From a virus, in IMG/VR virus record IMGVR_UViG_3300026292_000003, positions 1-64,000 of that record: a stretch of 64,000 nucleotides of DNA; one strand, written 5' to 3'. Below, piece by piece: positions 1,218 to 17,457 of the stretch (position 1 is the first letter of the stretch; each line of letters opens with the position of its first letter). The position numbers were made by a program, and so were the translations under genes. The notes below the pieces were generated by a model. That model was not told where the DNA came from, ran no database searches, and saw nothing but the letters and a program-made list of their open reading frames with translations.

Positions 1218-1224
1218 CAGATAC

Positions 1225-1452: not shown

Positions 1453-1467
1453 TGTTTAAGGAATCGT

Positions 1468-1800: not shown

Positions 1801-1992
1801 CAGGGTGGGGGCCCAACGAATTTTTGGATTTTTTCCCATTTTTAGCACAAGACCAATCTTAAGCTAACGTAGGGTTACCGGATCCATATAGGGAAAACCT
1901 TCGCTTACCACTGTTTTAAAAAAAATACGTAGCAATTTTTTTCACAGATTTGCTACAGGGTCTTTCTATAACGCATCACTATAAGGAACTGT

Positions 1993-2250
1993 ATGCACTA
2001 TAACGATACTGATGTTACACGTGTACAAGCTACTAGTAAGCATATTGAGTTTGAACTCTCCGAGTTTATGTGTTTACTAAAGGATTGGATGAACTGTGAT
2101 CAAGCTAACGAGGATAATCACTATATGTACTACAAGCTAATAGATTGGCTTAATGTGTTACAACACAAAGTAAACGATTTAGAGTTAAGTGTAGCTGAAT
2201 TAGAGCTATTAGAACGCATATATGAGTGTGGTTATATAGGAGATTGTTAA
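1993..2250 (+). CDS. hypothetical protein (85 aa)
   Basis: An acidic, largely helical 85-residue protein with many Leu, Glu and Asp. The C-terminal half may form a coiled coil. The ATG follows AAGGAAC at good distance. No domain is recognised. It lies in the run of small plus-strand genes ending at the terminator near 2700. Confidence 0.6.
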   Translation: MHYNDTDVTRVQATSKHIEFELSEFMCLLKDWMNCDQANEDNHYMYYKLIDWLNVLQHKVNDLELSVAELELLERIYECGYIGDC

Positions 2251-2311
2251 CAACTTATACGTTAATTATCAACAGTTTTAACTAACCAAGACATTTTGGT
2301 TAAATAATAAT

Positions 2312-2695
2312 ATGGATAATATATACATATACGGAAACAAAGCTAATCATGACTTGATTAAACCCAAGACGGAATACAACTACGACTATATCATTAACGA
2401 TGCAGTACGTAGTGCTAAAGCTAAATGGGCTATTACTCCATTCAATAACAATGATGTATTAGAGTATAAAGTAGTTTGTAGAGAGTTTGGACGTCCACTT
2501 GAGATGGTACATCATCATTGGAGTAGTATAATGGAAGCAGATCGTTTATGGTATATAGTAAGTGAAATGGATTGGGATCATATAGAACCAACTGCACGTA
2601 GCAATAGACAGCTAAAATATCAAGGCTGGTATGATCAATACTTCAAAGATATATACACTCCAGAACAATACGCCAGTATACTGCGTCTAGCATAG
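2312..2695 (+). CDS. hypothetical protein (127 aa)
   Basis: A soluble 127-residue protein rich in aromatic residues (many Tyr and Trp). No known motif. No clear Shine-Dalgarno sequence precedes the ATG; upstream at 2287-2299 is a CAAGACATTTTGG element like those beside other promoters here. The stop codon lies inside the first of two strong terminator hairpins, and the gene converges on hsp20. Confidence 0.55.
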   Translation: MDNIYIYGNKANHDLIKPKTEYNYDYIINDAVRSAKAKWAITPFNNNDVLEYKVVCREFGRPLEMVHHHWSSIMEADRLWYIVSEMDWDHIEPTARSNRQLKYQGWYDQYFKDIYTPEQYASILRLA

Positions 2696-2745
2696 TCGCA
2701 TAGCGACTATAAGGCATACTGTTACATACGCCTTATAGCACGTTT
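2693..2745. terminator. double hairpin between convergent genes
   Basis: TAGTCGC-ATA-GCGACTA (2693-2709) is followed by TATAAGGC (2708-2715) pairing with GCCTTATA (2730-2737), then GTTTTATT. The elements lie between the plus-strand gene ending at 2695 and the minus-strand hsp20 ending at 2761, so they may stop transcription from both sides. Confidence 0.6.
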
Positions 2746-2760
2746 TATTACTGAGAAGTC

Positions 2761-3204
2761 TTACTTGATTTCAATAGTTTTTGCTTTTTTAGCATCAGGG
2801 ATTATTCTTTCCATAGATACTTTAAGCAATCCATCTTTCAATTCAGCACCTTTAACTTCTACATCGTCAGCTACTGTGAATACTTTACTGAACATACGTT
2901 GTGATATACCTTTGTGCAGTACATCATTTCCATCAGCATCTTTGTTCACTTCCTTCTCTTTACTCTTTATAGTAAGCAAATTATCTTCATAGTTTACTAC
3001 TATATCATCTTTAGAGAAGCCAGCTAATGCTACTTCAATGTCGTAAGTATTGCTACCAGTTTTAACGATATTGTAAGGTGGGTAGTTTACTTGAGGTACT
3101 TGAAACACTTCATTATCAAACATTGATTCAAAGTGATCAAATATGTTATCAAAACCTACAGTTACAGGACGTAACTGATTAAAAATAGATAAATGTTTAT
3201 TCAT
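2761..3204 (-). CDS. hsp20: small heat-shock protein, Hsp20/IbpA family
   Basis: A 147-residue alpha-crystallin-domain chaperone that should hold unfolded proteins without ATP. The N-terminal arm resembles IbpA (SIFNQLRP...FD). The alpha-crystallin domain spans about 45-140, with the signature stretch YDIEVALAGFSKDDI and C-terminal GLLKVSMERIIPDAKK. AAAGGAG precedes the ATG. Hsp20 is commonly carried by marine T4-like cyanophages, probably to assist virion assembly or a stressed host. Both a late octamer (3268-3275) and a weaker sigma70-type promoter (3290-3317) lie upstream. Confidence 0.93.
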   Translation of the reverse strand: MNKHLSIFNQLRPVTVGFDNIFDHFESMFDNEVFQVPQVNYPPYNIVKTGSNTYDIEVALAGFSKDDIVVNYEDNLLTIKSKEKEVNKDADGNDVLHKGISQRMFSKVFTVADDVEVKGAELKDGLLKVSMERIIPDAKKAKTIEIK

Positions 3205-3267
3205 CTTTATACTCCTTTATTAAGCAAGTTAATTGTTATTAGTAGACCCTAATGGCATCTACAGTAT

Positions 3268-3275
3268 TATTTATC
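3268..3275 (-). promoter_or_regulatory. late-type promoter octamer (hsp20)
   Basis: On the minus strand this reads GATAAATA, resembling the T4 late promoter read by gp55. It lies about 64 nt upstream of the hsp20 start. A second possible promoter upstream reads TTGACT (3312-3317), 16-bp spacer, TATATT (3290-3295). The rest of the 3205-3500 gap holds no gene. Confidence 0.5.
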
Positions 3276-3453
3276 ATAACACTATATATAATATAAGCAT
3301 TATTTACAAAAAGTCAAGGGCCAATTTGAATCTTTTTTTAACGTGACCCTACTATATGTGCCTGTAGATACTATGGCACTATACGTATTCGAATCTTTAC
3401 AAAGTTTACAATAGATGGTTGGAAAAATTTTTTAAGCTGACCTTCGGTGAGTC

Positions 3454-3488
3454 TAGAGGGGTTATGGACACGCAATCCACCCCCTCTA
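3454..3488 (-). terminator. hairpin after the 92-aa gene
   Basis: TAGAGGGG (3454-3461) pairs with CCCCTCTA (3481-3488) around a 19-nt loop, just downstream of the minus-strand gene ending at 3501. It lacks a good T-run on that strand, so it may be a transcript-stabilising stem instead. Confidence 0.45.
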
Positions 3489-3500
3489 AAATAAATTTAA

Positions 3501-3779
3501 TTAGTAAGTATACTTGATTGACTTCTTCTTACCAACTGTACCATTGATTTTCTCAACAGTAATTCCAAGTTTACCAGCTTCTAATTGAGCAAATACACCT
3601 TGGTTAAGTGTTATACCACTTTTTAAACCTTCGTGAAACAACTGGCTTCTACCTATTTCAGTGTTACCAGCTTGTTTGCTCTCTGCTAAAAACCTTTTGA
3701 TCCACGTTCTAGCAGTCTCTTGTTTGTTCTCTTTCTTAACTTCAACAGTATTTTCTACTGTATTTGTAGTATTTTCCAT
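3501..3779 (-). CDS. hypothetical protein (92 aa)
   Basis: A 92-residue protein with a polar, Thr/Asn/Glu-rich N-terminal tail (1-22) and a compact basic domain after it, ending in a KKKSIKYTY tail. The latter part could bind nucleic acid, but no family is recognised. AGGAG precedes the ATG. It has its own consensus promoter (3813-3841). Confidence 0.65.
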   Translation of the reverse strand: MENTTNTVENTVEVKKENKQETARTWIKRFLAESKQAGNTEIGRSQLFHEGLKSGITLNQGVFAQLEAGKLGITVEKINGTVGKKKSIKYTY

Positions 3780-3812
3780 TTTTACTCCTGTGTTTAATGG
3801 TTAATTACTACT

Positions 3813-3841
3813 AATATACACTAATCAAGACGTCTTGTCAA
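3813..3841 (-). promoter_or_regulatory. sigma70-type promoter with palindromic operator-like site
   Basis: On the minus strand TTGACA (3836-3841), 17-bp spacer, TATATT (3813-3818). A perfect 12-bp palindrome, CAAGACGTCTTG (3826-3837), overlaps the -35 and spacer, as expected for a repressor site. Flanks match the promoter at 550. Confidence 0.75.
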
Positions 3842-3995
3842 CCGAAATACCAAGCTAAAAAACCCTTATAAATCAACAGTTTAGCAAGATGTCTTGGTAA
3901 TTATAACTCAATATATCGGTAAAACCATTAAAATGATGTTTACTATGGGTTGTATTGTTCTAAATACTATACATAAATTGGGAAGGAGGCTTGTT

Positions 3996-4259
3996 ATGAG
4001 ACGTATTAAAAGCCCTGTATCCGATAAGGACTGGAAGAAACTGAAGCGAAAAGCTCCTAAAGTTCCAGATTACACCTGCCCTCAAATCGATGATGTGTTA
4101 GCACGTATCGAAAAGATAAAAGATAAACAGAAGTTGAGTCAATATCAACACGACTTAATAATGAAAAGAATGGAAGCCTTGCGTAAAGCAAATGACGCTC
4201 TACGTGAAAGTGGTATCTATTGGTATGAGATTGCAAAGAACATCAAAGACAACAACTAA
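3996..4259 (+). CDS. hypothetical basic protein (87 aa)
   Basis: An 87-residue, Lys/Arg-rich, mainly helical protein with a probable coiled coil through the central region. The ATG at 3996 has a very strong AAGGAGG 7 nt upstream. A longer TTG-initiated frame from 3894 is less likely. No family is recognised. The gene overlaps the small minus-strand gene by four nt at the tail. A CAAGATGTCTTG palindrome lies upstream at 3885-3896. Confidence 0.6.
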   Translation: MRRIKSPVSDKDWKKLKRKAPKVPDYTCPQIDDVLARIEKIKDKQKLSQYQHDLIMKRMEALRKANDALRESGIYWYEIAKNIKDNN

Positions 4260-4360
4260 TCGTATATAAAAGGATCTTGGTCTTGAATCTTCTTTAGCTT
4301 CTTTTTCATAGCTCTACGATATTTCCATTCACGATACTTTTCTATTATCCATTTAAACAT
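4256..4360 (-). CDS. 34-residue conserved-looking microprotein
   Basis: A 34-codon frame beginning MFKWIIEKYREWKYRR and ending DPFIYD, highly basic in the middle. GGAG sits 6 nt before the ATG, inside the end of the upstream gene, and the start overlaps that gene's stop by eight nt, so it looks like the last gene of the minus-strand operon. I recall similar short proteins ending in DPFIY in marine T4-like phages, but cannot verify that here. Confidence 0.6.
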   Translation of the reverse strand: MFKWIIEKYREWKYRRAMKKKLKKIQDQDPFIYD

Positions 4361-5348
4361 CTGTATCTCCATAGTTCTGTTCTAATTGCCAACCATATTG
4401 GTCTTTCCAAGTGTACGGCCAATCTCTACTGGCTAACAGTTTATTGTTTTCATCTAACAATTCAAATCGTTGTACATTGTTAAACATTTGTATATACTTC
4501 TTATACCACCATTGTTTATCTTCTGGTATTCGCCAACGTGCAATAATTGCATAACCTAATGCGTTAGCAGGATCGTTTTCATCAACACCTAATTGTTTTA
4601 ACCAAGTTCGGAATCCATCCCAATCAATATTTATATCATGGAATACCAAATCAAACTCTCCACTAACATATTTAATAGGTTGCATATCCTCTAATGGTAC
4701 ATTTGTATCTCCACTTAAATATGCTTCTATGAATTGCTTTCCTGTTTGTGGATAATGTAGTCTAACATCTCCGGTTTTGTATTCTTGCATTTGGAATTGG
4801 GATAGGTGTTCTGGTTCTATATTGTGTTTCACATTTGGATACAAACATACAATTATAGATCCACTACTACTATCTTTATTACGACTCCATAGTAGTCCTT
4901 CCATTTCATGACAGAAGTGATTGAATTGATTAATACTAAACCTAATTCCCTTTGGTGCATTTTGTGAAATAGGGTTAGGGGTTTCGTGATGTCCCATTAA
5001 AACTTCAAAGTGTCTATGTATATCATTTAATTGTTTTTGATTTACAGTATCAGCATAGAACTTCATATCAACAATATGATCTATATCGTTTAGTAATAGG
5101 TAATTGTTAACCTTGTCTATATGCCAATTCATTTCGTTGCATAACCATTCTAGGTCTCTGGTGTGCATATCACTCCAACCATGCAAACAGAAGTTCTTAT
5201 CTAATATTACATTGTCGTCATTTATATAGTCTTCGTGTAAACTCTTTGCCCACTTCTGCGATAGTTTAGTTTTAAATATATCATACTCTATCCAAAACTC
5301 TTCGTGCGTATCTGTATGCGTTAGCAATACTCTTAATGTTTTATACAT
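4353..5348 (-). CDS. hypothetical protein (331 aa), radical SAM operon
   Basis: A soluble 331-residue protein with many Trp and His and no signal peptide. I do not recognise a domain. It starts eight nt inside the preceding SGNH-like gene and is second-to-last in the operon running from about 15 kb down to 4.3 kb. Its co-transcription with radical SAM and glycosyltransferase-like genes suggests a shared pathway, but nothing in the sequence defines the reaction. Confidence 0.7.
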   Translation of the reverse strand: MYKTLRVLLTHTDTHEEFWIEYDIFKTKLSQKWAKSLHEDYINDDNVILDKNFCLHGWSDMHTRDLEWLCNEMNWHIDKVNNYLLLNDIDHIVDMKFYADTVNQKQLNDIHRHFEVLMGHHETPNPISQNAPKGIRFSINQFNHFCHEMEGLLWSRNKDSSSGSIIVCLYPNVKHNIEPEHLSQFQMQEYKTGDVRLHYPQTGKQFIEAYLSGDTNVPLEDMQPIKYVSGEFDLVFHDINIDWDGFRTWLKQLGVDENDPANALGYAIIARWRIPEDKQWWYKKYIQMFNNVQRFELLDENNKLLASRDWPYTWKDQYGWQLEQNYGDTDV

Positions 5349-6282
5349 TGTAATTCTCTTTTATATAAGGTATCAAGTAATTGTGTGCAAATAGTTCATG
5401 CACTTTCCAATTAGGATGTGTTAGTACAGTTCTATAATATTCTTTATTGTCACGCACATCTGCCATACTGTGAGCAAACGTATATGGAAAGAACATTTTA
5501 TTAAATTCTTTTTGTAGAAATTTTGTTATATCTGGATTAAGATTTGTTTTAAAGTCATCTGATTCTCTAGCGATCTGTTCGTGTATAGTATTAACAGGAA
5601 CACATATCTCTACACAATTATCTCTAGGATATATATCTCGCTTTTCTATTTCAGGAACTTCTCTATACATACCTATAGCATCAATCATTATTACATTCTT
5701 AAACATAGCTTTAGTGGCCTGCATTAATCCATATGCTTGTACATACCTTGCAGGAATATCATCTACACTATCAAATATATCTATAGCATCTTTAAATCTT
5801 GGATCCAATAAGTGTTGAGTAAACTTATGAACACTATAAGTTTTAAATTTAGGATGTTCAGTGTGTGTATCCCAATGTACATTTAAACGTGTACTTCTAA
5901 ACGGATATGTATAGTTTAGTATAACAAGTGTATTGTCATCTATTTCGTTTTGTCTATTAATCATCTCTGCGAAGATTGCAGTATTACTATACCCACCTAC
6001 GGCATAGTTTTTATATTCTTTTATCCCAAGCTCTTGGTGTGCTATGTATGTAGTAGTAAGTCTTTCAGCTTGATGTTCCCAATCTGCTTCAGCTCGTTCT
6101 ATAGCATAGTATTTTTTATGATGTTCTGCTTTTCTATTCTTTACTGCTATACTACCATCAAACTCTAAATTTGCATTAAAGTTTTCTTTTGCCCAAGCAT
6201 TAATGTCGCCATAATGTTTTTGTACTAGTTCAGTACCTTTCATATAGCTACAACCAAATACTATAATTTTATTAATGCTCAA
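5341..6282 (-). CDS. SGNH/GDSL-hydrolase-like protein
   Basis: A 313-residue protein resembling SGNH-fold hydrolases. Block I is the N-terminal IIVFGCSYMKGTE, and NYAVGGYSNTAIF (about 95) resembles the Gly/Asn blocks. Similar proteins in marine phages are usually left as hypothetical. The start is a TTG at 6282, overlapping the upstream stop, because AAGGAG lies 7 nt before it. The nucleophile would be the Ser of GCSY. The catalytic Asp/His pair is not clear, so activity, perhaps ester hydrolysis on a glycan, is uncertain. Confidence 0.5.
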   Translation of the reverse strand: MSINKIIVFGCSYMKGTELVQKHYGDINAWAKENFNANLEFDGSIAVKNRKAEHHKKYYAIERAEADWEHQAERLTTTYIAHQELGIKEYKNYAVGGYSNTAIFAEMINRQNEIDDNTLVILNYTYPFRSTRLNVHWDTHTEHPKFKTYSVHKFTQHLLDPRFKDAIDIFDSVDDIPARYVQAYGLMQATKAMFKNVIMIDAIGMYREVPEIEKRDIYPRDNCVEICVPVNTIHEQIARESDDFKTNLNPDITKFLQKEFNKMFFPYTFAHSMADVRDNKEYYRTVLTHPNWKVHELFAHNYLIPYIKENYNV

Positions 6283-7288
6283 TGCTACACTCCTTGTTAC
6301 ATATACCTGGCGTAAATGTTTTCCACATAATACTATCAAAGTAATTTAATATACTGTCAAATGATTTGTTCTGTAATTTCATATGGTCCACATTGAATAA
6401 TGATTTAAGTTCTTGTTTGCTAGAGTCTTCAACATATCTATTGTATAAGTCTCCTATATAACAACAAGGAAATACAGTACCATCTACGTGTACCATTAAT
6501 TCAGTACCCCATGACTGTAGACTTTTACAACTAAACTTCTTTTGCTCTACTGTTTGTTTAACACGTATAGGATTGTTTATATCTACTGTATCCTTTACAG
6601 TATCTATTGCGTCTGGTGTAATAGATAATTTATATAATAGCTTTCCGTCTTTGTCATAAACTCCACGTTTATAGTATTTATTATCCCAAAAAAACCCATA
6701 AGGTTTCTTAAATCTAATATCTTGTAAGCCCCATTCTTTACATTGAGCTTTAGCTTGTTCTAGTTGATGCTTGTTATATTCAAACATAAGATAGTCCCAC
6801 ATACCTTTGGCACCTGTACTTGTATAAGCTCTAATGTTTGCATCTATTCTATCCCACAATACTCCACGTCTATACATATTGTTAGTATCTTCTAAACCAT
6901 CAACACTAAAAAACATTTGATACTTGTTGTTATTCTTTAATATATTTCCTATAGCTTTCCATTGTTTAGTACTTCCTAGGCCACCATTTGTATTAACAAT
7001 AATGTACGCATCTTTATTCAAGTGCGTTACAGCATAATCAAGTATCTCTACTATTTCTGGATTAGCTATTGGGTCACCATAGTTACCACAGAACATTAAA
7101 CGTTTTACTCTGTTGTTTAATAGTTCTGGACTACACCAACTTTTAAATTGTTCTAGAGATACATTGTCTTGTATTAGATTTGGATTAAGAACTGTTGAGG
7201 AGTTTACATATCTTGGACAACCAGGACAGTATGCATTGCATCTAGTACTCAGTTCAAAGTGTAATAATAAATTATTGTTTGCCCACAT
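6272..7288 (-). CDS. radical SAM protein with C-terminal SPASM-like domain
   Basis: A 338-residue radical SAM enzyme. C17-N-A-Y-C21-P-G-C24 forms the CxxxCxxC [4Fe-4S] site that cleaves S-adenosylmethionine. The usual G-rich strand follows, and the C-terminus carries a further Cys cluster (around VFPCCYIG and GICNKEC) typical of SPASM/twitch auxiliary clusters. Such enzymes often modify peptides or sugars. It overlaps both neighbours by 11-17 nt in a tight operon with three other radical SAM genes. The substrate is unknown. Confidence 0.85.
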   Translation of the reverse strand: MWANNNLLLHFELSTRCNAYCPGCPRYVNSSTVLNPNLIQDNVSLEQFKSWCSPELLNNRVKRLMFCGNYGDPIANPEIVEILDYAVTHLNKDAYIIVNTNGGLGSTKQWKAIGNILKNNNKYQMFFSVDGLEDTNNMYRRGVLWDRIDANIRAYTSTGAKGMWDYLMFEYNKHQLEQAKAQCKEWGLQDIRFKKPYGFFWDNKYYKRGVYDKDGKLLYKLSITPDAIDTVKDTVDINNPIRVKQTVEQKKFSCKSLQSWGTELMVHVDGTVFPCCYIGDLYNRYVEDSSKQELKSLFNVDHMKLQNKSFDSILNYFDSIMWKTFTPGICNKECSIEH

Positions 7289-8561
7289 TGAAGTCAGTCC
7301 TGTTATAGTGTGGAGCTAACTCTGGGAATGTTTCTAAGAAATTTTCTTCACGTATCTCATCTAACTTATTTGTAATACGTAAGAAGTCTTTATGTACATT
7401 GGCTTTATGATTGTCGGGAAACTCTGTCCAAAGATAATCTTTAATACTCTTGTAATACCACTCTAGTTTTTCATATATGTCTTTATCATTTTTATATTTT
7501 GCTAAATGAGAATCTAGTTTTTGATGTACAGTATGTTTTAATTCCGTAGGCATTGTTTTCATATGATACCAATCTGGATTAGTTAACACGTTACTAATAT
7601 GTAAGTTATTAATTTTTAATCCCAACTCAAACATCTTTTCTACATACTCTGGCATATGCCAAACGTTTAGTAATTGTATAGTAGGACTAACATTTAATTG
7701 TACAATGTCTTTGTGTTTTAATACTTCTGCAAAGTTTTCTTCTATCTTATCCCATCTAGTTCCTTTTCTAATATATTCAGCACGTGGTCCTATGTCATCT
7801 ATACTTGCCATAATCTGTACAAGATTAAAATGTTTCCAAAGGTCAACACACTTCCACTTCTTATAGTTTATTTTCATAAAGTTAGTGTTGTATCTTATCT
7901 TAACATCTTTTCTACCTTTGGCTATTAACTGTTCAAGTATATAATAATGCTCGTCCATAATTAATGGTTCGCCACCTGCAAAGTAAACTTCTTCTACCAT
8001 ATGCAAGTTACTGTCAATAACTTTCTTTATGTCTTGTTTACTAAAGTCATTAACGTGTACAATAGCAGAGTTCTCACTAGTTCTTTTATAAAGTTTCTTT
8101 TCATCTTCGTGCCACAAGTGACTTAGGTGTCCTCCACACATTCTACATTTCATATTACATAAGTTACTGAAACGAAAGTCCCAATATATAAGATCCATTT
8201 TATCTAATGATCCATCTGGGTTAGTTTGTTCAGCTTTAGGATACAAGTGATGATCGAATGTCCAGTTTGCATTTACTCTAAAGCTACGAATACCCTTGCC
8301 TTCTTGTTCATAACATTTCATACAAGACTTTGGCTTCTTACCATCTAGTAAATCTAATCTAAGTTTTTTATAATGATCGTTGTTCCATATCTCGTCCATG
8401 GTATTATCTTTTAAGTTACCAGCAACGTTACGCATATCAGTAATACAACATTGATATACATTTCCATTTGGCCAATGATGTATATGTATCCAAGGTATTA
8501 TACAAAACGATTTACTTGGTGGGTTCTTATAAAACTTTTTCTTATCATTAGGATTAGACAT
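7272..8561 (-). CDS. twitch-type radical SAM protein
   Basis: A 429-residue protein with its Cys-rich twitch-like domain first (C20, C38, C39, C80, C83) and the radical SAM core after it (C135-N-M-K-C139-R-M-C142). This is the reverse of the usual core-then-SPASM order. FAGGEPL later in the core is the expected SAM-contacting GGEP motif. The ATG at 8561 is chosen over an upstream ATG at 8597 because GGGAG lies 7 nt before it. It overlaps the upstream gene by eight nt. Substrate unknown. Confidence 0.85.
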   Translation of the reverse strand: MSNPNDKKKFYKNPPSKSFCIIPWIHIHHWPNGNVYQCCITDMRNVAGNLKDNTMDEIWNNDHYKKLRLDLLDGKKPKSCMKCYEQEGKGIRSFRVNANWTFDHHLYPKAEQTNPDGSLDKMDLIYWDFRFSNLCNMKCRMCGGHLSHLWHEDEKKLYKRTSENSAIVHVNDFSKQDIKKVIDSNLHMVEEVYFAGGEPLIMDEHYYILEQLIAKGRKDVKIRYNTNFMKINYKKWKCVDLWKHFNLVQIMASIDDIGPRAEYIRKGTRWDKIEENFAEVLKHKDIVQLNVSPTIQLLNVWHMPEYVEKMFELGLKINNLHISNVLTNPDWYHMKTMPTELKHTVHQKLDSHLAKYKNDKDIYEKLEWYYKSIKDYLWTEFPDNHKANVHKDFLRITNKLDEIREENFLETFPELAPHYNRTDFNVGKQ

Positions 8562-9903
8562 CAATGCTCTCCCACCAGGCTGTAAAGTTATCATCATTTA
8601 CAATCTTTATTATATCTTGATTACGTCTTTCAGTATATTGTGTAAAGAACTTTTTAAAATCGTTTTCTTTGTTTTCTGTTGTATCAGTATCATCATAAGA
8701 CTTCTCAACTTTTCTTAAATAAGAAACAAGCCTTTGTAATTGATTTGCCTCGTCGGCTTTTAAAAACTCTTTGTTATTTGTAATCCAATCATCTATCTCA
8801 TCAGCCTTTGATTGTTTAATAATATTAGGTAATACATTTACACTTTGAAAACTAGGAAAACGTAAAAGGTTAACACTTAAATTAAAATAGTTTCTATTTT
8901 CAAATTGTTTTTTTAATTCTATTATGTCATCTAAGAACTTTGTAATACTAAACAAACAACCCCAACTGATTGTCATCATAATAGTAATTTGTGTAGCATT
9001 AGCTTTTTCTGCAAACTGTTTAAGATTAGTAAGCCACATATTATAATCAAGTCCAGCTCTAAGTAGTTCAGCATGGTCACCGTGTGCTTCACAGCTAGTG
9101 TATAAGTCAAACTCTTTAAACTTTTTACTGCAATCAATTAACTTATCAAGTCTTTTTTGATCCATAATAAGATTACTGTTAACTGCAAATTTAAACTTTT
9201 CGTTTTGACACTTCTCAACTAGTTCCCAAAATTGTGGACTACGTGTTGGCTCCCCACCTGTTACTCTAAGTTCTTGTAAATTATATCTTAAACTTTCATC
9301 AAACCATTCAAAGAATCTTCTTATATAAAAATTATCTTGAGGTCGTTTAGGTTCAAATGCGTATGCATGACTACCATCATTCTGATATGTCATACCACCA
9401 TCTGTTTTCATTTCTTTATACATTCCATTCTTTTTAATATCATTACTCCAAGTACTACTAAACTCTGCGTTACAATAACTACAAGCTAGGTTACATAGAT
9501 TATCAAAACTTATTTCTAATGTTTTAGGATCTACATCTTGATCCCACGGAATGTTTTTTATTTCTTCAATTTCTTTATCTGTATACAATGCACTCTTATA
9601 AGTTCTATCACTGTGAACTTCTTTGTCTGCATCTTCAACACGCCAACAATAATTACACTCAGCAGGTCTATTACCTTCTAGCATTTGTTTACGTATTTCT
9701 TTTTTAAAATTAGTATTGTGTAATGCGGCAGGGCTGTCGAATATTTCTTTACTAGGAATGTAATGTGCCTGTGGGTGATGGCAACTAGCAGTTCTGCCGT
9801 TGCTTAACCATACAGTACTGTTATACCACTTGGCCGCACAGAAGCTAGAACTAATCTTGTTATTTCTATCTCTAACGTGGTCTAAATACTTTTTGTCGGC
9901 CAT
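8554..9903 (-). CDS. twitch-type radical SAM protein
   Basis: A 449-residue protein paralogous to the next upstream gene. N-terminal cysteines C22, C41, C83 and C86 (FCAAKW, SCHHP, CNYCWR) are followed by the radical SAM CxxxCxxC C137-N-L-A-C141-S-Y-C144 and the GGEPTRS motif. AAGGAAC precedes the ATG, inside the end of the preceding gene (22-nt overlap). The shared architecture implies duplication and divergence within the operon. The substrate is unknown; peptide or glycan modification is the plausible range. Confidence 0.85.
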   Translation of the reverse strand: MADKKYLDHVRDRNNKISSSFCAAKWYNSTVWLSNGRTASCHHPQAHYIPSKEIFDSPAALHNTNFKKEIRKQMLEGNRPAECNYCWRVEDADKEVHSDRTYKSALYTDKEIEEIKNIPWDQDVDPKTLEISFDNLCNLACSYCNAEFSSTWSNDIKKNGMYKEMKTDGGMTYQNDGSHAYAFEPKRPQDNFYIRRFFEWFDESLRYNLQELRVTGGEPTRSPQFWELVEKCQNEKFKFAVNSNLIMDQKRLDKLIDCSKKFKEFDLYTSCEAHGDHAELLRAGLDYNMWLTNLKQFAEKANATQITIMMTISWGCLFSITKFLDDIIELKKQFENRNYFNLSVNLLRFPSFQSVNVLPNIIKQSKADEIDDWITNNKEFLKADEANQLQRLVSYLRKVEKSYDDTDTTENKENDFKKFFTQYTERRNQDIIKIVNDDNFTAWWESIDV

Positions 9904-11297
9904 TGAGTTCCTTTACATAGATTGTAGTAACCAATCAGTTCAGGAAACGTCTCACCAAAGTCTGTGTTTCTTCTTTTGTCATATTCAGTAATAAACTTAC
10001 CAAAATCAAATCTATTTTGCTCTACATTACCTACAGATGATTTGTACATAAATTGACAAAGTCTTTTTATTTGATCTATTTCATCGTCCCAAATAAATCC
10101 ACAATCTTTCATATGATAATTCTCCAACGCATATTTTGTCACTACATCTTCTAGATGCTCAAGCACTTTGTCTTTAGCATCTTTATTTAAATTACATATT
10201 GCCAACATATGAGGATAACGTAAATAGTTTGTCATCATAGGCAATCTATTTCCCTCCTCTATATGGTTGGTTATATACTTCTTACGCAATGATACAACAT
10301 CTTCAATAAATTTATGATATGTTGTAGCACTTAATATATTTACCGTAGTCATAAAGCTGAATATTAGAGGCATCTTTCCATATGTAGCATCTAGTATCTT
10401 TTTACAGTTACGATACCATCTATCATACTCTAATCCGTATCTAGCATACTCTGCCTGCTTACCTACACTTTCTCCGCTTGTAAATATTTGTATTTCTTTT
10501 AGCTTTGGTCCAGTCTTTAACATAAACTCTATAAGTCTGTCTATCATATGATCTGGTACACTTAAATTTGAATTAATACTTAACGTTAGTTCCTCGCTAG
10601 GGTCTTCACTAACTTTATCCATAACACTCCAACAATCTTTACTCATTAATGGTTCACCACCTGTAAGTCTGAGTGTATGTAAACTAGGATAAAGACTAGG
10701 CCACCACTTCCAAAATGCATCAACATATGGATTATGTTCTCTGTTTGGAATTATCTTTTTACCTTGTTCTTCTAATACTTCAAAGCTATTGTATTTTGTT
10801 GTAGTAGGATATGCACCGTGTTGTTTTATTTCGTCATACCACTTACTACTTAAATCTGGACTACAGTAAGCACACTTTAAATTACATACGTTACTAAAAC
10901 TTATTTCAAGGTAGGAAGGGTTAATATCATTTGTTCTTGCATTAAGAACATCAAACGTCCTAGGCTTACTCCAACTGACATTTGATTTATAAACACGATC
11001 ACTAAAATGTTCTTTGCCCATATCTTCAACACGCCAACAGTAGTCGCAACCAGATGGACGTTTACCGTCAAGCATCATTTGCATTTCTTTTTTCTTATGT
11101 TGTGTGTTGTGTAGGGCGGCTGGATTCTTTTCTATTTCGTGTATAGGAATCTTATGAACAGGTGGATGGTGGCAACTATGATTCATTCCTGTTTGCAAAT
11201 ATAGTGTATGTTGTAACCATTTTGCTAAACAAAAACTAGGGCTGATTCCATTTAAGTCATCACGTACCCTGTTAAGTTGATCTATAATTTTTGACAT
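9882..11297 (-). CDS. twitch-type radical SAM protein
   Basis: A 471-residue paralogue of the 449-residue neighbour. N-terminal C23, C42, C84 and C87 (FCLAKW, SCHHPP, CDYCWR) and radical SAM C138-N-L-K-C142-A-Y-C145 match it motif for motif, as does TGGEPLM. The spacing to the upstream glycosyltransferase-like gene is 10 nt and no strong Shine-Dalgarno sequence is seen. It is the first radical SAM gene transcribed in this operon. Substrate unknown. Confidence 0.85.
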   Translation of the reverse strand: MSKIIDQLNRVRDDLNGISPSFCLAKWLQHTLYLQTGMNHSCHHPPVHKIPIHEIEKNPAALHNTQHKKKEMQMMLDGKRPSGCDYCWRVEDMGKEHFSDRVYKSNVSWSKPRTFDVLNARTNDINPSYLEISFSNVCNLKCAYCSPDLSSKWYDEIKQHGAYPTTTKYNSFEVLEEQGKKIIPNREHNPYVDAFWKWWPSLYPSLHTLRLTGGEPLMSKDCWSVMDKVSEDPSEELTLSINSNLSVPDHMIDRLIEFMLKTGPKLKEIQIFTSGESVGKQAEYARYGLEYDRWYRNCKKILDATYGKMPLIFSFMTTVNILSATTYHKFIEDVVSLRKKYITNHIEEGNRLPMMTNYLRYPHMLAICNLNKDAKDKVLEHLEDVVTKYALENYHMKDCGFIWDDEIDQIKRLCQFMYKSSVGNVEQNRFDFGKFITEYDKRRNTDFGETFPELIGYYNLCKGTQWPTKSI

Positions 11298-11307
11298 AAT
11301 AAAGCAT

Positions 11308-12294
11308 CTATTCTAAAGTATCCTCAACCTGATCTTCTCTTACCTGAGCTCCAAGTCTACTAGGATTAATATATACTTCTTTAAAGAAACGAGAACCTTC
11401 TTTACCTAAGTCTGCTATTTCTAAGCCAAGTTCTGATCTAATGTCATATCCTAGTTTATTACTTTCTTCTTGTAACTTTGCATAGTTCCATTTCATTCCA
11501 GTTCTTGGACATAGTTGATCTGAAGACTGTTCAAAATTTGGCAATACATTTTCTTTAAAATAATTTGATAACCAATCAAAGTCTCTAACGTTTTTCCAAT
11601 CCCAACTTTCTCTTTGAATGTTTGTCATATGACATCCAAGTCTAGCACCATAGATTGCCCACAGTCCATTCTCAACATCATCACCAACACTCATCCAAGT
11701 TAGTAAACGTTTATAGTTTTTATTGTGTACTTTAGCTTTTAGATATAACGGATCTATTACATCTCCATCTACTAATCCCATCTTAACACCTTCACGGAAA
11801 CCTGCTCTCCAGGCTTGAAGAGGACTAGCATTATTCATAACATCACAGTAAATATTATTCATTTGTACATAGTTAATATTCCAACAGAAATCAACCTGAG
11901 CTCGTTTATCTCCTGCTGGTGCATTTTCGTGTGTTTGCATTCCATATACAACTTCTTTTGGCCAACACTTAATACCACCATTACCATATACAAGACCGTT
12001 AACTATATTCTTACCAGCCCAACTAATAACGTCAGTATCTCTAATACGTTCCATATCTACTTCAATGCCAAAGAAATCTTCTTTAACAATGTTATCAGCA
12101 TCAATGCCAATAAATCTATCTGTCTCTGCCAAGTCTGCCGCGGCTTTGTGTGCGGCGTCACTTCCAAACACACCATGACTTCTTTTAGCCCATGGTGCTT
12201 TTTCAATTAAATTATTATAGTTCTCATCTGCGTTTGGTTCATCATAGCTAATAAAGACTATATCAAATTCATTGATACTAACCATTTTGCTCAT
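11308..12294 (-). CDS. glycosyltransferase-like protein (GT-A fold)
   Basis: A 328-residue protein. The N-terminal FDIVFISYDEP strand and D65-A-D67 in FIGIDADNIV resemble the nucleotide-sugar strand and metal-binding DxD of GT-A glycosyltransferases. Similar proteins are common beside tail genes of marine myoviruses. It starts 17 nt inside the upstream gene, with GGAG upstream. The donor and acceptor are unknown; phage DNA, a virion protein or host surface sugar are all possible. Confidence 0.55.
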   Translation of the reverse strand: MSKMVSINEFDIVFISYDEPNADENYNNLIEKAPWAKRSHGVFGSDAAHKAAADLAETDRFIGIDADNIVKEDFFGIEVDMERIRDTDVISWAGKNIVNGLVYGNGGIKCWPKEVVYGMQTHENAPAGDKRAQVDFCWNINYVQMNNIYCDVMNNASPLQAWRAGFREGVKMGLVDGDVIDPLYLKAKVHNKNYKRLLTWMSVGDDVENGLWAIYGARLGCHMTNIQRESWDWKNVRDFDWLSNYFKENVLPNFEQSSDQLCPRTGMKWNYAKLQEESNKLGYDIRSELGLEIADLGKEGSRFFKEVYINPSRLGAQVREDQVEDTLE

Positions 12295-13297
12295 TTAATT
12301 CTTCTCCGTTTGTACTTACTGTTACGTAATTATTTCTAAAAACTATAAGTGGATCCTCTGGCCACTTAAAACTTAAATTAACTTTTGATTTCTTTTGTAG
12401 TAGATTTTCTACTGGTACTTGAAATGCACCAACTAAATTATCAATGCTATTGTCGCATACTACAAATTTCATTTGTTTCCTTCCATCAAAGTAATATAGT
12501 TCAGAGTCTTTAATATTGCTGTCTATATAAGCAGTATTATCTACTACGTTAATATTTATGTTAGATTTATCTTGTACATTTCGTTGCAGTATTCTTTTAG
12601 TTCCAAGGAAGTCCTGATTACGTATAAGACTAGCACTTAACGACCATCCATAGTTACTAAAGACTGTTTTTGCATATAAACTAATATTGTTCCAGTCAAC
12701 CTTCTCATTAATTGCAGTAGGAAGCTCAACAATTTGTTTTCCATTTTTAAATAAAGTTAATGGATCAACTTCAATACTGCTTATTAAATAGTCTGGATCG
12801 TTTTTCTTAGTAATATAGATATCTAATAATTTATTCTCAGATGATGCAATTTCCGTTATATCACTTAAATTTTTTAATCCTCTGATGTTACCTTTATTAG
12901 CTTCTATTACTATTTTTGCATCTTCATAAAACACTTTAGCAAATATTTCAGTAGCAGTAGGGTCAGCATCATATGTAAATGGGGTTAGCTTATTATGTTT
13001 TGCTTCAATGATTAATGTAGTGCTACGAAAATCAATATCCCATTTTTCATTTATCATATCCCATATCATACCATATCTTTTTAAACTGGCTTGACCTTTG
13101 ATAATTCTTTTGCAAACAGGATTCCAAGATTCTGCTTCCATGAAATTTTCTTTATCTTTTATTTCATTAGGAGTATTAGTAATCTTTTTTATTTTTCCAG
13201 AGGTCTTTTCAAAAACAATATAATATTTTCTTTTATTATAATGAGGATTAGTCCCCTCGTTTCGCTGTGCTTGTAAATGCTTGTCTGTGTCCATCAA
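12278..13297 (-). CDS. hypothetical protein (339 aa)
   Basis: A 339-residue beta-rich protein with many charged residues and no motif I recognise. The assigned start lies 50 nt inside the preceding gene. This is an unusually long overlap, so the true start may be downstream, though no better ATG is close. It lies between two glycosyltransferase-like genes. A virion or accessory-structure role is possible given its beta-strand content, but this is guesswork. Confidence 0.55.
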   Translation of the reverse strand: MMDTDKHLQAQRNEGTNPHYNKRKYYIVFEKTSGKIKKITNTPNEIKDKENFMEAESWNPVCKRIIKGQASLKRYGMIWDMINEKWDIDFRSTTLIIEAKHNKLTPFTYDADPTATEIFAKVFYEDAKIVIEANKGNIRGLKNLSDITEIASSENKLLDIYITKKNDPDYLISSIEVDPLTLFKNGKQIVELPTAINEKVDWNNISLYAKTVFSNYGWSLSASLIRNQDFLGTKRILQRNVQDKSNININVVDNTAYIDSNIKDSELYYFDGRKQMKFVVCDNSIDNLVGAFQVPVENLLQKKSKVNLSFKWPEDPLIVFRNNYVTVSTNGEELNEQNG

Positions 13298-14111
13298 ATA
13301 TTTCTTTTGTTAAAAACTCTTGTTCTCCGTAATATAGATTAGTGTTTATAGCAAAGTTCTGAATTTTAACTTTAGCTCCACTACTAATCCAAGTATTCAA
13401 TCTATCTGTCCACTTTGGCCAGAATCCTATACAGCCATCACTTAACGTTGTAAGCATATTAACTGTTTTAAAAATATCGTTATGCAAGTTTTTATTTTCG
13501 TAGAGTACTACAGTATTAAGTATACTATGCATAATATCATTATTATAATATTTTGGTCTATGTTGTTCTTTAAAGTATTTTGCAAATACAGATCTCCAGT
13601 CTTGCATAAATGGGTCAGCAAGTTTATGATATGCTAATGCTAAATCAGTATCGTGTTTAAAGTAATACATATTTCCATATACAATATCCATATCGTAATC
13701 TTCTTTATATATCTGTAATTTTTTATTTTCTAATGCGTCACCTTTAAAATTATAAGACTCATTAAAGAAACATATATCATATTGATCAATTAAGAATTCC
13801 CATATACTATCATGATTTTCTTTTACTAAACTAGCAGGGTCAATTACTATATTATGCAAATAAGGTGTTGCCCAATATAACTGCCAATCATTACATCTAG
13901 TAGTTTCACTTGAACCAAATGGAAGTTCTATCATATGATCAAATGCATCGTGATAATGATGAGGTATTCTATCTTTATAGTTTGTAACAATAGCTACACT
14001 GGCATCTTTATTATGAGTTTTAATACTATAAGCCAATGCTGTTGCTTGTTCATATTCATAATCCTGCATAGCAGGAATTACATAACCTTGTCCTTGTTTA
14101 TGTTCCTGCAT
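13248..14111 (-). CDS. glycosyltransferase-like protein, possibly degenerate
   Basis: A 287-residue protein whose N-terminal third (GYVIPAMQDYEYEQATALAY, then VAIVTNY) resembles GT8/GT-A transferases like the 301-residue gene upstream. The expected DxD is replaced by HNIVIDPASLV, so catalysis may be altered or lost. It overlaps that upstream neighbour by six nt. The pair looks like a duplicated transferase module. Confidence 0.5.
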   Translation of the reverse strand: MQEHKQGQGYVIPAMQDYEYEQATALAYSIKTHNKDASVAIVTNYKDRIPHHYHDAFDHMIELPFGSSETTRCNDWQLYWATPYLHNIVIDPASLVKENHDSIWEFLIDQYDICFFNESYNFKGDALENKKLQIYKEDYDMDIVYGNMYYFKHDTDLALAYHKLADPFMQDWRSVFAKYFKEQHRPKYYNNDIMHSILNTVVLYENKNLHNDIFKTVNMLTTLSDGCIGFWPKWTDRLNTWISSGAKVKIQNFAINTNLYYGEQEFLTKEIFDGHRQAFTSTAKRGD

Positions 14112-15003
14112 TAAGTGTCTCCAATACTTTATCTTTAATTCTACCTAGTGAACGTTTATTCATAACGTGTACATCTTGGTCTTGTGATTTTACTAAAATG
14201 TTTTTCCATTCTTCTTTTGGATCGTGTGCTATAAATATCCACTCGTTATCATTTGTCGCTTCGATGATATCATCTTTCTGACTCATATTAATTAGTGGTG
14301 TGTTGTCAAAGTTTCCAAACATATCTTCTTGCCCAATCATTCCTGTAAGTAAATGAACTGCTATACTTACACAATAGTCTGTTCTAAATAGTTTACTTGG
14401 AAAGTTATACAGATACTGATAAAACTCGTAGTTATCAGCAACGTGAGCCCACGTGTCAAAAAACATTTTACTAAAATCGCTACGGTCAAAGTACACTACA
14501 GTACTCCACCACATCTTAATACCTGCATCATATAACATTCGTTCTCGTTCAGCAGGAGGTTCGTTTCTTAGAGTTAATGCATTATCAAACATTATAACAC
14601 TCTCACCAGCGTCAAAGTATTTTAACAATACATCTGTTTTAACAATGTAATCAATATCTAGTAATAGTGTTTGTTCAAATGGACTGTATTCGTAAATTTT
14701 ATGTTTGTTACTGTTACTAAATTGTGCATTAAATTCTGTCCACGGACTATCATAGTGACGTCTGTGGTTTTCTTTCATCTCATCATTTGTCGTGATAATG
14801 TAATCAAAACATTTATTGATTAATTTTTCATCTTGACTTTGCTCAAGCCATTGCTCTGATCCTACATCAGTAACTAAGGCTACTGGAAGTTTAAGATTTT
14901 TCTTTACGTATAAGGCGGCAGTCATTGCCATACTAACATAATCTAATTGATCATTGTTGTAAGCAAAAAAGCATACACCTTGTTTGTCGGCGTATTCTTT
15001 CAT
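14098..15003 (-). CDS. glycosyltransferase-like protein (GT8-like)
   Basis: A 301-residue protein with a GT-A-type layout: a strand at about 9-14, LPVALVTDV at 39-47, and D116-I-D118 in TLLLDIDYIV as the metal-binding DxD. The ATG at 15003 shares one base with the upstream stop (TAATG), so it is translationally coupled; a TTG two codons earlier is less likely. A UDP- or NDP-sugar transferase role is probable. The acceptor is unknown. Confidence 0.6.
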   Translation of the reverse strand: MKEYADKQGVCFFAYNNDQLDYVSMAMTAALYVKKNLKLPVALVTDVGSEQWLEQSQDEKLINKCFDYIITTNDEMKENHRRHYDSPWTEFNAQFSNSNKHKIYEYSPFEQTLLLDIDYIVKTDVLLKYFDAGESVIMFDNALTLRNEPPAERERMLYDAGIKMWWSTVVYFDRSDFSKMFFDTWAHVADNYEFYQYLYNFPSKLFRTDYCVSIAVHLLTGMIGQEDMFGNFDNTPLINMSQKDDIIEATNDNEWIFIAHDPKEEWKNILVKSQDQDVHVMNKRSLGRIKDKVLETLNAGT

Positions 15004-15350
15004 TACCAATCCATTATTTTCTTAATGTTCCTTGCCTTCTTTAGACGTTCGTTCTCAATATCAAATTCAGTAGTAGCACTAGTGTAAGCATCAACAAGTT
15101 TATCCATAAGTTCTTTTAAACTTTTTACAGTAACAGGATTTTGTCTACTATCAATTACTATAGCACTTTTCTTATCCATATCTAATAGTGTTTTTATAAA
15201 TGCAATCGTTTCGTGATTAGCAATAAACACACCACCAAGATAGTGTACTATCTGTAATTGTGCTACTCTATTTCGGATATTTCGTTTTTGGTTGTTTATA
15301 GTTAAGGCATAATTACTGAATTCTAATGCCTTTTCAAGTCTTTCATCCAT
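15003..15350 (-). CDS. hypothetical protein (115 aa), first gene of accessory operon
   Basis: A 115-residue, mostly helical basic protein with no recognised domain. It is the first gene after a late-type octamer (15401-15408) and so leads the long minus-strand operon of transferases and radical SAM enzymes. It ends in a TAATG junction with the transferase gene. Function unknown. Confidence 0.65.
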   Translation of the reverse strand: MDERLEKALEFSNYALTINNQKRNIRNRVAQLQIVHYLGGVFIANHETIAFIKTLLDMDKKSAIVIDSRQNPVTVKSLKELMDKLVDAYTSATTEFDIENERLKKARNIKKIMDW

Positions 15351-15400
15351 ATTAGAGTATACTCCTTTATCGTATATAATTATATACGTACATTATAAAG

Positions 15401-15408
15401 TATTTATC
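15401..15408 (-). promoter_or_regulatory. late-type promoter octamer
   Basis: Minus strand GATAAATA followed by CTTTATAATG, about 55 nt before the first gene of the radical SAM/transferase operon. It implies the whole operon is expressed late, with virion genes. Confidence 0.55.
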
Positions 15409-15427
15409 GATGTGTGTCAATGGTTAA

Positions 15428-16540
15428 TTATGGAGTGGGTAATTGGTAGCCAGGCGTTACATCTACTGATTTCCATTCTTCTATTTGTGTAACACTTGGT
15501 GCAGTTCTAGCTAAAAATTGACGTAATGTTCCTAATGTCATAAATGAAGCATTACCATCAGTTGGTACTGGTGTTAATGCTGGAGTAGAATGTCCAGAAG
15601 TTAATGTAATAGGTTGCGTTATAGAAAATACATCGTCGTCATCTTCTACTAATATAACTTTAACAAAAACATTAAACTTACCAGCATCTTCTGTACCTCT
15701 TAATTGTAATCTTATTCTTCTACTATTATATTCACCAGCTACATAAACATATGCGTAAGCATATGCGTAGTCGCCTGTTGTATATCTAAAAACACCTGCA
15801 TCTAATATTGTATTCCACGCACCATCAAATGTTATTCCGTTATAAAAACCTTTTGGTGCTAATGTACTTGTTGACAATATATCTTTTGGATCAGCATCAT
15901 CTTGAACTACTCTACAACCTTCTGCTCCAATTCTTATACTATCAAATTGTTCAAATATTTGTCTCCAAGTATCGTTACCAGCTGATCCGCCTGGTTGCAT
16001 AGATAGTTCTAGTGTTAACTCTCCGCCACTATTAAAAAAATGTCTAGCTTCGTTGTAATCGTTAAATTGAAATCTATGAACACAATATAAGTCTTGGTCC
16101 CAAGCTGTAGTGTTTGTAGTTTCTAAAACATCTAGTGTAAGGTCTGACCATTCTGTTTTAAATTTATCAGTTTCAAATGTAGCAACTTTATCAACAAGTG
16201 AATTATATAATACAGGTGAAATTGGATCTGTATGATTGGCCGCTAACTTTGAAAGTAGTCTAGTAGGGTCATCGTTAATATGATATTGTCCAGCATTAAC
16301 TTGAACAATAGCTTGGTTCATATCATTAGCTTCAATAAGTTTACCTACTGTTACCGCAGGTGTTATTGTAACATTTGATTGTCCCCAACCATATCTTCTA
16401 TTATCATTTTTTGTGTTATGGTTATTGTCAAAGGTATAGGTTCCGCCAGTCCAGATCTCATTATAATATGTAACGAGATCGTTTAAGTGAGAAGCTGTTA
16501 TCTTCTCGCCTGTGTATACTGTAGCGGGCCTATTTAGCAT
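15428..16540 (-). CDS. tail-fibre or virion structural protein (370 aa)
   Basis: A 370-residue protein typical of marine myovirus structural proteins: an N-terminal helical region (ASHLNDLVTYYNEIW and similar), a central beta-rich portion, and a Tyr-Ala repeat (YAYAYAYVYVAG) inside a strand near residue 265. It follows the 304-residue structural gene by one base. A role in tail fibres or the baseplate is likely from context. No enzymatic motif. Confidence 0.6.
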   Translation of the reverse strand: MLNRPATVYTGEKITASHLNDLVTYYNEIWTGGTYTFDNNHNTKNDNRRYGWGQSNVTITPAVTVGKLIEANDMNQAIVQVNAGQYHINDDPTRLLSKLAANHTDPISPVLYNSLVDKVATFETDKFKTEWSDLTLDVLETTNTTAWDQDLYCVHRFQFNDYNEARHFFNSGGELTLELSMQPGGSAGNDTWRQIFEQFDSIRIGAEGCRVVQDDADPKDILSTSTLAPKGFYNGITFDGAWNTILDAGVFRYTTGDYAYAYAYVYVAGEYNSRRIRLQLRGTEDAGKFNVFVKVILVEDDDDVFSITQPITLTSGHSTPALTPVPTDGNASFMTLGTLRQFLARTAPSVTQIEEWKSVDVTPGYQLPTP

Positions 16541-17455
16541 TTACTTTACCCCAACTATAACTTCAATAACGCCTTCACCTTCAGTAGTTTTCTTTTCTAA
16601 AGCTCTACCTAAAACGTGTGACCATCTAACATCATCGCCAGCTTCCATTGCGTGACCTTCTATATCACTTGATATAAGTCTGTCACCTTTATTAACTTTT
16701 CCAGTAACTTTACAAGGAACTCTTCCCATTAAAGCAACGCCTACAGTAAACATACCTTCGGGTGCTTCTAATGTTGAGTTCATTAGCAATGCTGGATTTG
16801 TAGTAACTACTCCAAGTACTTTAGGATCTTTTGTATGTTTGCTAGATGTAACTTCAAATTTGTTTTCATCTTCAGCATCCATCATTATTACAGTTCCTGG
16901 TTCAAATTGCTCATCAGCTGTATACATCTCTGCAACGTCTGCGTATTGTGCGTGTGTTGCAGTTCCGTGAAACTTCATAGCTGACGCTGTAACTGTATTT
17001 AAAGTGATACCAGTTTTGATTGTTGCTACACTACCTGTACCACCATCTAAAAAATATTGATGATAATCAGTTTCTGAAGTGTTAAGAATAAAGTCAGCAT
17101 CTGAACTTGCCATTGATACTGGTATTCCGTTTGCTCTTGCAACAAATACATTGTGGTCTACGTTAGTATTATCTTTAACAGTAATCATACTACTTCCAGC
17201 ATCAACACCTAACCATGTTGAGCCACTTCTTAAGTACATTACTTTTTCTGATGGTTTCCACCAAATCTGACCTTCAATTGGATTGGAAGGAGCAGTTTCA
17301 CTAGCAAAATTCTCTAATAAGCTAACTGAGTTTTGTGCAATAGCTTCACCGTATCCAATATAATCCTTACCAACTAAACGCAGGCTGGTTTCAGTGTTTA
17401 GTGTATCGTCTGCTACACTAATCGTTCCACCGTTTTTATTAATTGTATATGCCAT
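16541..17455 (-). CDS. tail-fibre-like structural protein (304 aa)
   Basis: A 304-residue virion protein. The first 80 residues (YTINKNGGTISVADD, then IEGQIWWKP) match the attachment-domain style of cyanophage fibres. The C-terminal 130 residues (YADVAEMY, GTVIMMD, KVLGVVTTNPALLMN) resemble the tail ends of fibre proteins in marine phages. It lies between two other putative fibre genes on one transcript. Receptor binding or fibre assembly is the probable role. Confidence 0.65.
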   Translation of the reverse strand: MAYTINKNGGTISVADDTLNTETSLRLVGKDYIGYGEAIAQNSVSLLENFASETAPSNPIEGQIWWKPSEKVMYLRSGSTWLGVDAGSSMITVKDNTNVDHNVFVARANGIPVSMASSDADFILNTSETDYHQYFLDGGTGSVATIKTGITLNTVTASAMKFHGTATHAQYADVAEMYTADEQFEPGTVIMMDAEDENKFEVTSSKHTKDPKVLGVVTTNPALLMNSTLEAPEGMFTVGVALMGRVPCKVTGKVNKGDRLISSDIEGHAMEAGDDVRWSHVLGRALEKKTTEGEGVIEVIVGVK

Positions 17456-17457
17456 GT

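Follow-up and report, generated by a model that had tools for sequence, protein, structure and literature searches.

A phage operon beside tail-fibre genes joins a fixed block of glycosyltransferase genes to an exchangeable cassette of radical SAM (rSAM) genes, and we read it tentatively, in an interpretation somewhat short of probable, as cytosolic machinery that makes a glycan for a fibre-linked virion protein and tailors it by radical chemistry. The operon lies in a 64,000-nucleotide stretch of the viral record IMGVR_UViG_3300026292_000003 (positions 1 to 64,000; hereafter the window). In the scheme that we infer for the acceptor, the reaction and the location of the product on the virion, the fixed block (a, the GT8-like b and c, the beta-sandwich protein d and the GT-A protein e) would attach a short glycan to a virion protein linked with the fibres. 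The cassette (R1 to R4, S and z) would perform radical chemistry on that glycan or on the residue bearing it, possibly a dehydrogenation, an epimerisation, a deoxygenation or the formation of a new C-C or C-S bond, and acyl transfer or removal on the glycan could be a further cassette step.

The eleven open reading frames run on the minus strand from 15350 to 4353, and neighbours overlap or lie at most about 10 bases apart, as an initial annotation had described. The operon edge that it placed at 4256 falls inside a convergent gene (3894-4259); the true end is 4353. The fixed block opens with a (15003-15350; 115 aa, probably helical) and continues with b (14098-15009), c (13248-14111), d (12278-13297) and e (11308-12294), which closes it. 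Upstream, on the same strand, lie f15, f16, f17 and the gene of a 3499-aa VrlC-type structural protein (15428-28606), assigned by synteny and by PHROGs matches to virion structural protein and tail fibre. An Rfam search of positions 1-20000 gave no match.

Radical SAM enzymes react at otherwise inert C-H bonds, and four are encoded in the cassette: R1 (9882-11297), R2 (8554-9903), R3 (7272-8597) and R4 (6272-7288). All four carry CxxxCxxC, and the cysteines of this motif (C137, C141 and C144) are invariant in the alignment. Pfam Radical_SAM scored 38-46 bits for R3 and R2, 33 bits for R1 and 28.5 bits for R4, the last just below the 29.5-bit cut-off. R1, R2 and R3 match N_Twi_rSAM (NCBIfam NF033640) over its full length with 321, 286 and 405 bits, far above the curated cut-off of 170 bits. 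R4, at 68.5 bits, is not a member; it is missing the N-twitch part and bears a SPASM-like Cys motif at its C-terminus. Before the SAM domain stands the Cys set of an N-terminal twitch/SPASM auxiliary cluster, C-x13-G-x4-C ... C-x2-C, of which C22, G36, C41, C83 and C86 are invariant across 85 sequences and which would bind an Fe-S cluster. R3 has a canonical SPASM-type Cys motif, and R1 and R2, ancient paralogues with 35% identity, share a CHHP-type second motif. The initial annotation had listed four radical SAM proteins, three with an N-terminal Cys-rich twitch and two clearly paralogous, and was right on each count, R4 being marginal as a Radical_SAM match. It had overlooked that the rSAM genes are exchangeable cargo, that R1 and R2 form a conserved pair and that six further rSAM genes lie outside the operon in the same genome, which holds eight N-twitch rSAM genes (R1, R2, R3 and five elsewhere). 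NF033640 describes a subfamily without a stated reaction, for which, to our knowledge, no function has been shown. The nearest solved rSAM enzyme, cytosylglucuronate decarboxylase, aligned with E 0.003 along a stretch of only about 68 columns at the GGEP motif, and we did not take it as evidence for the substrate.

Proteins b and c are GT8-type, glycogenin-like glycosyltransferases. In profile searches c matched glycogenin-1 (E 1.9e-5); b alone matched glycogenin weakly and was assigned through its homology to c (hhalign E 5.9e-25) and its invariant DxD (D118, D120). The c protein of this phage has DPA instead of DxD. For the well-conserved e, the AlphaFold2 model (pLDDT 88.7) found glycosyltransferases and nucleotidyltransferases as its top Foldseek matches, and D65 and D67 (DxD) are invariant; on the model, e is a GT-A fold glycosyltransferase, with TM scores (about 0.3) too low to fix the family within GT-A. 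The three glycosyltransferase-like proteins first proposed are thus b, c and e. The model of d (pLDDT 86.9) consists of consecutive Ig/FN3-like beta-sandwiches, for which Foldseek returned mostly tandem Ig/FN3 proteins, generic and with low TM scores. No enzyme motif was seen in d, which may serve as a structural or acceptor partner. Aligned with its relatives, S (5341-6339) shows GCSY where orthologues have GDSY, together with the G-x-S-N and His blocks; since it has no Pfam match, the earlier designation as SGNH-like stands at motif level only. The last cassette gene, z (4353-5348; 331 aa), had no significant match to any family in profile searches.

The fixed block follows the fibre genes, and the cassette (4353-11297, minus strand) occupies an exchangeable cargo bay behind it. 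By blastn, a sister phage (L176) is 83% identical to the window over 11296-22231 and 80-89% identical over most of 70-4248, whereas the cassette still aligns over no more than 381 bases at 67% and at its last bases (4257-4363). Other rSAM and SGNH-like genes stand there in place of precisely the rSAM part (about 4.3-11.3 kb). The whole cassette is swapped as a unit in the sister phage, as for a surface-type locus, which argues for a glycan on the virion; such a swap would give the surface a different chemical type and leave the fixed block as it is. A second similar locus in the same genome (75456-80984), with GT2-like, e-paralogue and SGNH-like genes behind long tail fibre genes, points the same way. 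More speculatively, phages may carry exchangeable paired N-twitch rSAM sets that install rare radical-made bonds on their own tail-fibre glycans or residues, a switch of virion-surface chemical type in which the priming block is constant and the radical enzymes are swapped.

Linkage to virion genes argues for this placement as well. The gene order VrlC-f17-f16-f15-a-b-c-d-e recurs in relatives; f16 is present in 73 of the 80 e-bearing loci retained for comparison and VrlC in 59 of 80 (flanks are incomplete in the others). Genome scans used the R1/R2 alignment alone, since including R3 made the alignment too diverse to scan with. A second lineage carries the R1-R2 pair between long-tail-fibre homologues and tail sheath and tube genes, and over several phage lineages the pair, R2 being the usual partner of R1, is conserved with glycosyltransferases and tail genes. 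The position beside fibre genes, remarked on at the outset, is therefore a conserved one. In other lineages the co-clustered genes include GT7 plus a lectin-like domain, GT2, Methyltransf_24, a NodU carbamoyltransferase and a UDP-glucose dehydrogenase-like protein, and in Vibrio phage K566, which has been sequenced, the genes of four N-twitch-like rSAM proteins are interspersed with glycosyltransferase-like genes; this co-clustering of glycan enzymes with rSAM genes likewise favours the virion glycan. Tail-linked cassettes of this type, a fixed glycosyltransferase block plus swappable N-twitch rSAM genes, occur on hundreds of aquatic viral contigs. Five operon proteins had no tblastn match among 50,697 deposited phage records, and R3, searched in deposited phages, had weak relatives only, in four Vibrio phages.

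The same enzymes could instead act on the cell: made early from a sigma-70 promoter, they might alter the surface polysaccharide of the host, for example to exclude competing phages. We consider this less likely than a virion glycan but a serious alternative. It has precedent, being the published reading for jumbo cyanophages (PMC7824862) and for pelagimyophage glycosyltransferases (PMC7029224). Bacterial relatives of R1 lie near GT1 glycosyltransferases, a NodU carbamoyltransferase and a sugar aminotransferase, and K566 has a PagP gene close to its rSAM block, all of which would suit such a role; the linkage to fibre genes across several lineages speaks against it. The bacterial homologues are mostly in Bdellovibrionota, some of them inside polysaccharide-type gene clusters, a setting that suits host-surface chemistry as well as a virion glycan. 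GT1 enrichment near these homologues (13 of 100 near versus 5 of 100 far) is modest, and the far genes may share the same clusters; we set it aside as too weak an argument.

Also against host-surface remodelling, the operon encodes no flippase, polymerase or priming transferase of the kind that marks a lipid-linked O-antigen or capsule locus, and none of its eleven genes has a membrane-like segment. Of the 1840 genes that viral loci have no more than 6 kb away from R1, R2 or R3, 15 contain such a segment. So low a number is what a cytosolic acceptor would predict, and export of a lipid-linked polysaccharide would not; since the rate is not much below that over all genes of those loci (31 of 2709), it is consistent with a virion acceptor and does not single it out.

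The upstream region bears on the same choice. The enriched octamer is GATAAATA, which precedes 28 ORFs by no more than 100 bases (2.2 expected) and has one copy at the operon; the plain octamer TATAAATA shows no enrichment in the window, with 3 copies where 15 would be expected. At the operon, the octamer, as GATAAATA(C), sits in the spacer of a perfect sigma-70 match, TTGACA-N17-TATAAT (15420-15392, minus strand). Upstream of a, 62 of 74 relatives have a sigma-70 promoter with at most two mismatches (2.8 expected) and 37 of 74 have an octamer, so that the sigma-70 promoter is the better-conserved element. Because the late octamer is embedded in this conserved promoter, the operon is probably expressed early as well as late. 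The late timing first proposed thus holds as far as the octamer is concerned and omits the early component. Early expression would make room for modification of the host, and the promoter, perfect here and widespread in relatives, counts in favour of that alternative; the octamer counts against it, since the enzymes are then probably still made while virions assemble. In this genome, those capsid, sheath and tube genes that were checked have the octamer alone, a difference that, with the wider occurrence of the sigma-70 promoter, makes early expression likely and sits less easily with a virion glycan. The earlier proposal that a virion surface component is modified agrees with the fibre-gene linkage and the glycosyltransferases, its timing being half right and host modification possible.

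Two further products were considered. Peptides are frequent substrates of SPASM/twitch rSAM enzymes, and weak NCBIfam matches to peptide maturases were found, so that rSAM/SPASM enzymes might mature a small phage peptide into a RiPP-like natural product. We regard this as improbable: the genes overlap or nearly touch, which excludes a precursor gene inside the operon for want of intergenic room, and the operon has no transporter or peptidase family. No precursor was found beside the maturases, and among small proteins of related loci (surveyed for ORFs of at least 50 aa) the conserved ones, c8 (about 70 aa, 22 loci) and a (115 aa), have no Cys-rich or variable core. The initial annotation had likewise named no peptide substrate. 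Decoration of phage DNA by the glycosyltransferases and rSAM enzymes is very improbable. Phage glycosyltransferases that modify DNA are known (Pyle 2024, as cited in PMC12619734), but the 221-kb record, which may be incomplete, holds no member of the thymidylate synthase/dCMP-hydroxymethylase family and thus no T4-type base precursor, and the operon lies among tail genes, away from nucleotide metabolism.

Glycans on the virion have precedent in mycobacteriophages, whose capsid and tail tube proteins bear them (Freeman 2023, cited in PMC12619734); these are other phages, where glycosylation was shown experimentally and, in the available text, no rSAM is mentioned, whereas here we infer it. Closer to our case, the hypervariable host-recognition cluster of pelagimyophages, downstream of VrlC, contains fibres, glycosyltransferases and rSAM cassettes (PMC7029224) and is very probably the same genomic place as the present operon. 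Its content is described there as variable and is interpreted as modifying the O-chain; the available text makes no mention of a fixed a-e block, of the R1-R2 pair or of a dual promoter. Multi-rSAM phages and fibre-linked glycosyltransferases were already known, and what is new is the modular operon, the conserved R1-R2 pair, the N-twitch gene counts and the octamer within a conserved sigma-70 promoter. NF033640 thereby gains a context in which it can be tested, that of virion or host-surface glycans; with their similar rSAM and glycosyltransferase-like genes, the deposited K566 and its relatives could make such tests feasible. If the glycan is indeed on the virion, phages would alter covalent surface chemistry as bacteria alter O-antigens. 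In its unusually many rSAM genes, the present large T4-like aquatic phage resembles the T4-like marine genome TARA_ERS488813_N000010, which has 12 (PMC5332604); that paper links them to Fe-S supply, and its available text is silent on gene order, on exchange of cassettes, on linkage to glycosyltransferases and on a promoter. Two records related to ours have 21 N-twitch matches each.

The window forms the initial 64 kb of a viral record of 221,643 bases (33.6% G+C), which has T4-like baseplate, tail and capsid genes. The operon lies on its minus strand, flanked by structural genes (15428-28606) and by a convergent gene ending at 4259. As the initial annotation had described, it comprises eleven genes; they overlap or nearly abut from 15350 to 4353 and are transcribed in the order a, b, c, d, e (15350-11308), R1 (11297-9882), R2 (9903-8554), R3 (8597-7272), R4 (7288-6272), S (6339-5341) and z (5348-4353). 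A RiPP pathway is unlikely, as no precursor was found and the operon leaves no intergenic room.

R1, R2 and R3 match NF033640, the N-terminal twitch radical SAM family (cut-off 170 bits), over their full length with 321, 286 and 405 bits, whereas R4 reaches only 68.5 bits and carries a SPASM-like motif C-terminally; the earlier count of four radical SAM proteins, three with an N-terminal twitch domain, is thus confirmed. Across 85 aligned R1/R2 sequences, C22, G36, C41, C83 and C86 at the N-terminus are invariant, as are the SAM-cluster cysteines C137, C141 and C144. The resulting C-x13-G-x4-C ... C-x2-C pattern is compatible with a twitch-type site, which may bind a cluster. Eight places in the record exceed the NF033640 cut-off and Pfam detects ten radical SAM genes; across twelve related records the N-twitch matches range from 0 to 21, with 21 each in G009 (198 kb, the record of locus L215) and G007 (519 kb, that of L019).

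The three glycosyltransferase-like proteins proposed earlier are likewise borne out, and the SGNH-like protein is supported at motif level. Gene b is homologous to c (hhalign E 6e-25) and c matches glycogenin, so both are GT8-like; the DxD motif is no longer clear in c of this phage. T4-type DNA glucosylation is an unlikely role, since no PF00303 member was found in the 221-kb record. Protein e (11308-12294) gave no family match, and its model (pLDDT 88.7) retrieves glycosyltransferases and sugar-nucleotidyltransferases from the PDB; with D65, D67 and N68 invariant, e is a predicted GT-A enzyme, reported here as new. The d model (pLDDT 86.9) consists of consecutive beta-sandwich domains with generic Ig/FN3 structural matches only. 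SGNH blocks are visible in S, although GCS replaces GDS in this copy.

Among 80 loci examined in a scan with e, the order VrlC-f17-f16-f15-a-b-c-d-e, which opens with the upstream virion genes, is recurrent, and variable genes follow e. Radical SAM genes are present in 72 of these loci, R1 together with R2 in 14. In two related records, G003 and G004, both fragments, the a-e block occurs with no N-twitch radical SAM match above cut-off; the radical SAM genes thus resemble cargo that a phage may or may not carry. A concrete case of their exchange is the sister phage (L176): it matches the window at ~83% identity across 11296-22231 and at 80-89% across most of 70-4248, but in place of 4363-11296 it has an only distantly related R1 (39%), followed in the list by an SGNH-like gene, another gene and an R3-like gene. 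Right past the exchange point lies an Hsp20-type small heat-shock protein-like gene (2761-3204, by eye).

An IMG/VR scan with R2 yielded 464 encoding stretches; in 71 of 80 loci examined from these, R1 lies immediately upstream of R2 or one gene off. R1 and R2 form separate clades, and the duplication therefore predates these phage lineages. The bacterial sequences come almost entirely from Bdellovibrionota and mostly group with R1; in the genome collection, cellular relatives of R1/R2 (L106-L174) hardly occur outside that phylum. In other lineages R1-R2 is accompanied by GT7 plus lectin-like domain, GT2, Methyltransf_24, carbamoyltransferase and UDP-glucose dehydrogenase-like genes. One flank consists of fibre homologues; the other, in one lineage, consists of sheath and tube genes. 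The deposited Vibrio phage K566 encodes four N-twitch-like radical SAM proteins (202, 193, 154 and 142 bits, two exceeding the cut-off), whose genes are interspersed with glycosyltransferase-like genes. A second modification locus in this genome (75456-80984; L012:11456-16984), behind long-tail-fibre genes, holds a GT2-like gene, an e-paralogue and an SGNH-like gene; it also has two 2-oxoglutarate/Asp-hydroxylase-type-like genes and a sulfotransferase-like gene, the hydroxylase-type, SGNH-like and sulfotransferase-like assignments being by eye, with no Pfam match.

The late octamer of this phage, GATAAATA, stands upstream of 28 ORFs against 2.2 expected, and at the operon it sits inside TTGACA-N17-TATAAT, a perfect sigma-70 match. 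Upstream of gene a, 62 of 74 distinct relatives have a sigma-70 site carrying no more than 2 mismatches (2.8 expected in mononucleotide shuffles), 37 an octamer (4.1 expected) and 27 both; given the relatedness of the 74 sequences, these counts are not independent. In this genome, the octamer stands without a sigma-70 site at those capsid-region, sheath and tube genes that were checked. From these data, the operon is probably transcribed early as well as late, and the late timing originally proposed holds for the octamer but is probably not exclusive.

Fixed fibre-gene linkage, scarcity of membrane proteins and the late octamer fit a cytosolic, tail-linked acceptor. Membrane proteins account for 15 of 1840 neighbours versus 31 of 2709 among all genes of these loci, which is consistent with such an acceptor but not discriminating. 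We tentatively prefer, at slightly under an even chance, the virion surface modification first proposed, in which radical SAM enzymes would tailor a glycan on a fibre-linked virion protein. A change of the host surface is a live though less likely rival, favoured by the conserved sigma-70 promoter, by the partly polysaccharide-like neighbourhood of the bacterial homologues (a modest enrichment) and by the interpretation of such regions in PMC7824862 and PMC7029224.

Two papers report that T4-like marine phages can carry a dozen radical SAM genes (2017, PMC5332604) and that radical SAM cassettes lie within the pelagimyophage host-recognition cluster (2020, PMC7029224). Our literature search found no paper devoted to the cassette itself; new here are the fixed block with its exchangeable cassette, the conserved R1-R2 pair, the dual promoter, e as a predicted GT-A and up to 21 matches per record.

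Elsewhere in the genome, N-twitch radical SAM pairs occur at 169938/171115 (L009:9938-12428) and 192594/193720 (L010:12594-14976), and a single such gene directly precedes the gene for family B DNA polymerase (208316); several of these have sigma-70-like sites upstream. The tenth radical SAM gene, not N-twitch (184806-185714), is flanked by genes for an RyR-domain protein and a UvdE-type UV endonuclease (region 184253-187003; L010:4253-7003). At 55940-57025 the window encodes a membrane protein resembling, by eye, an inorganic phosphate permease, followed by a tRNA-Trp gene.
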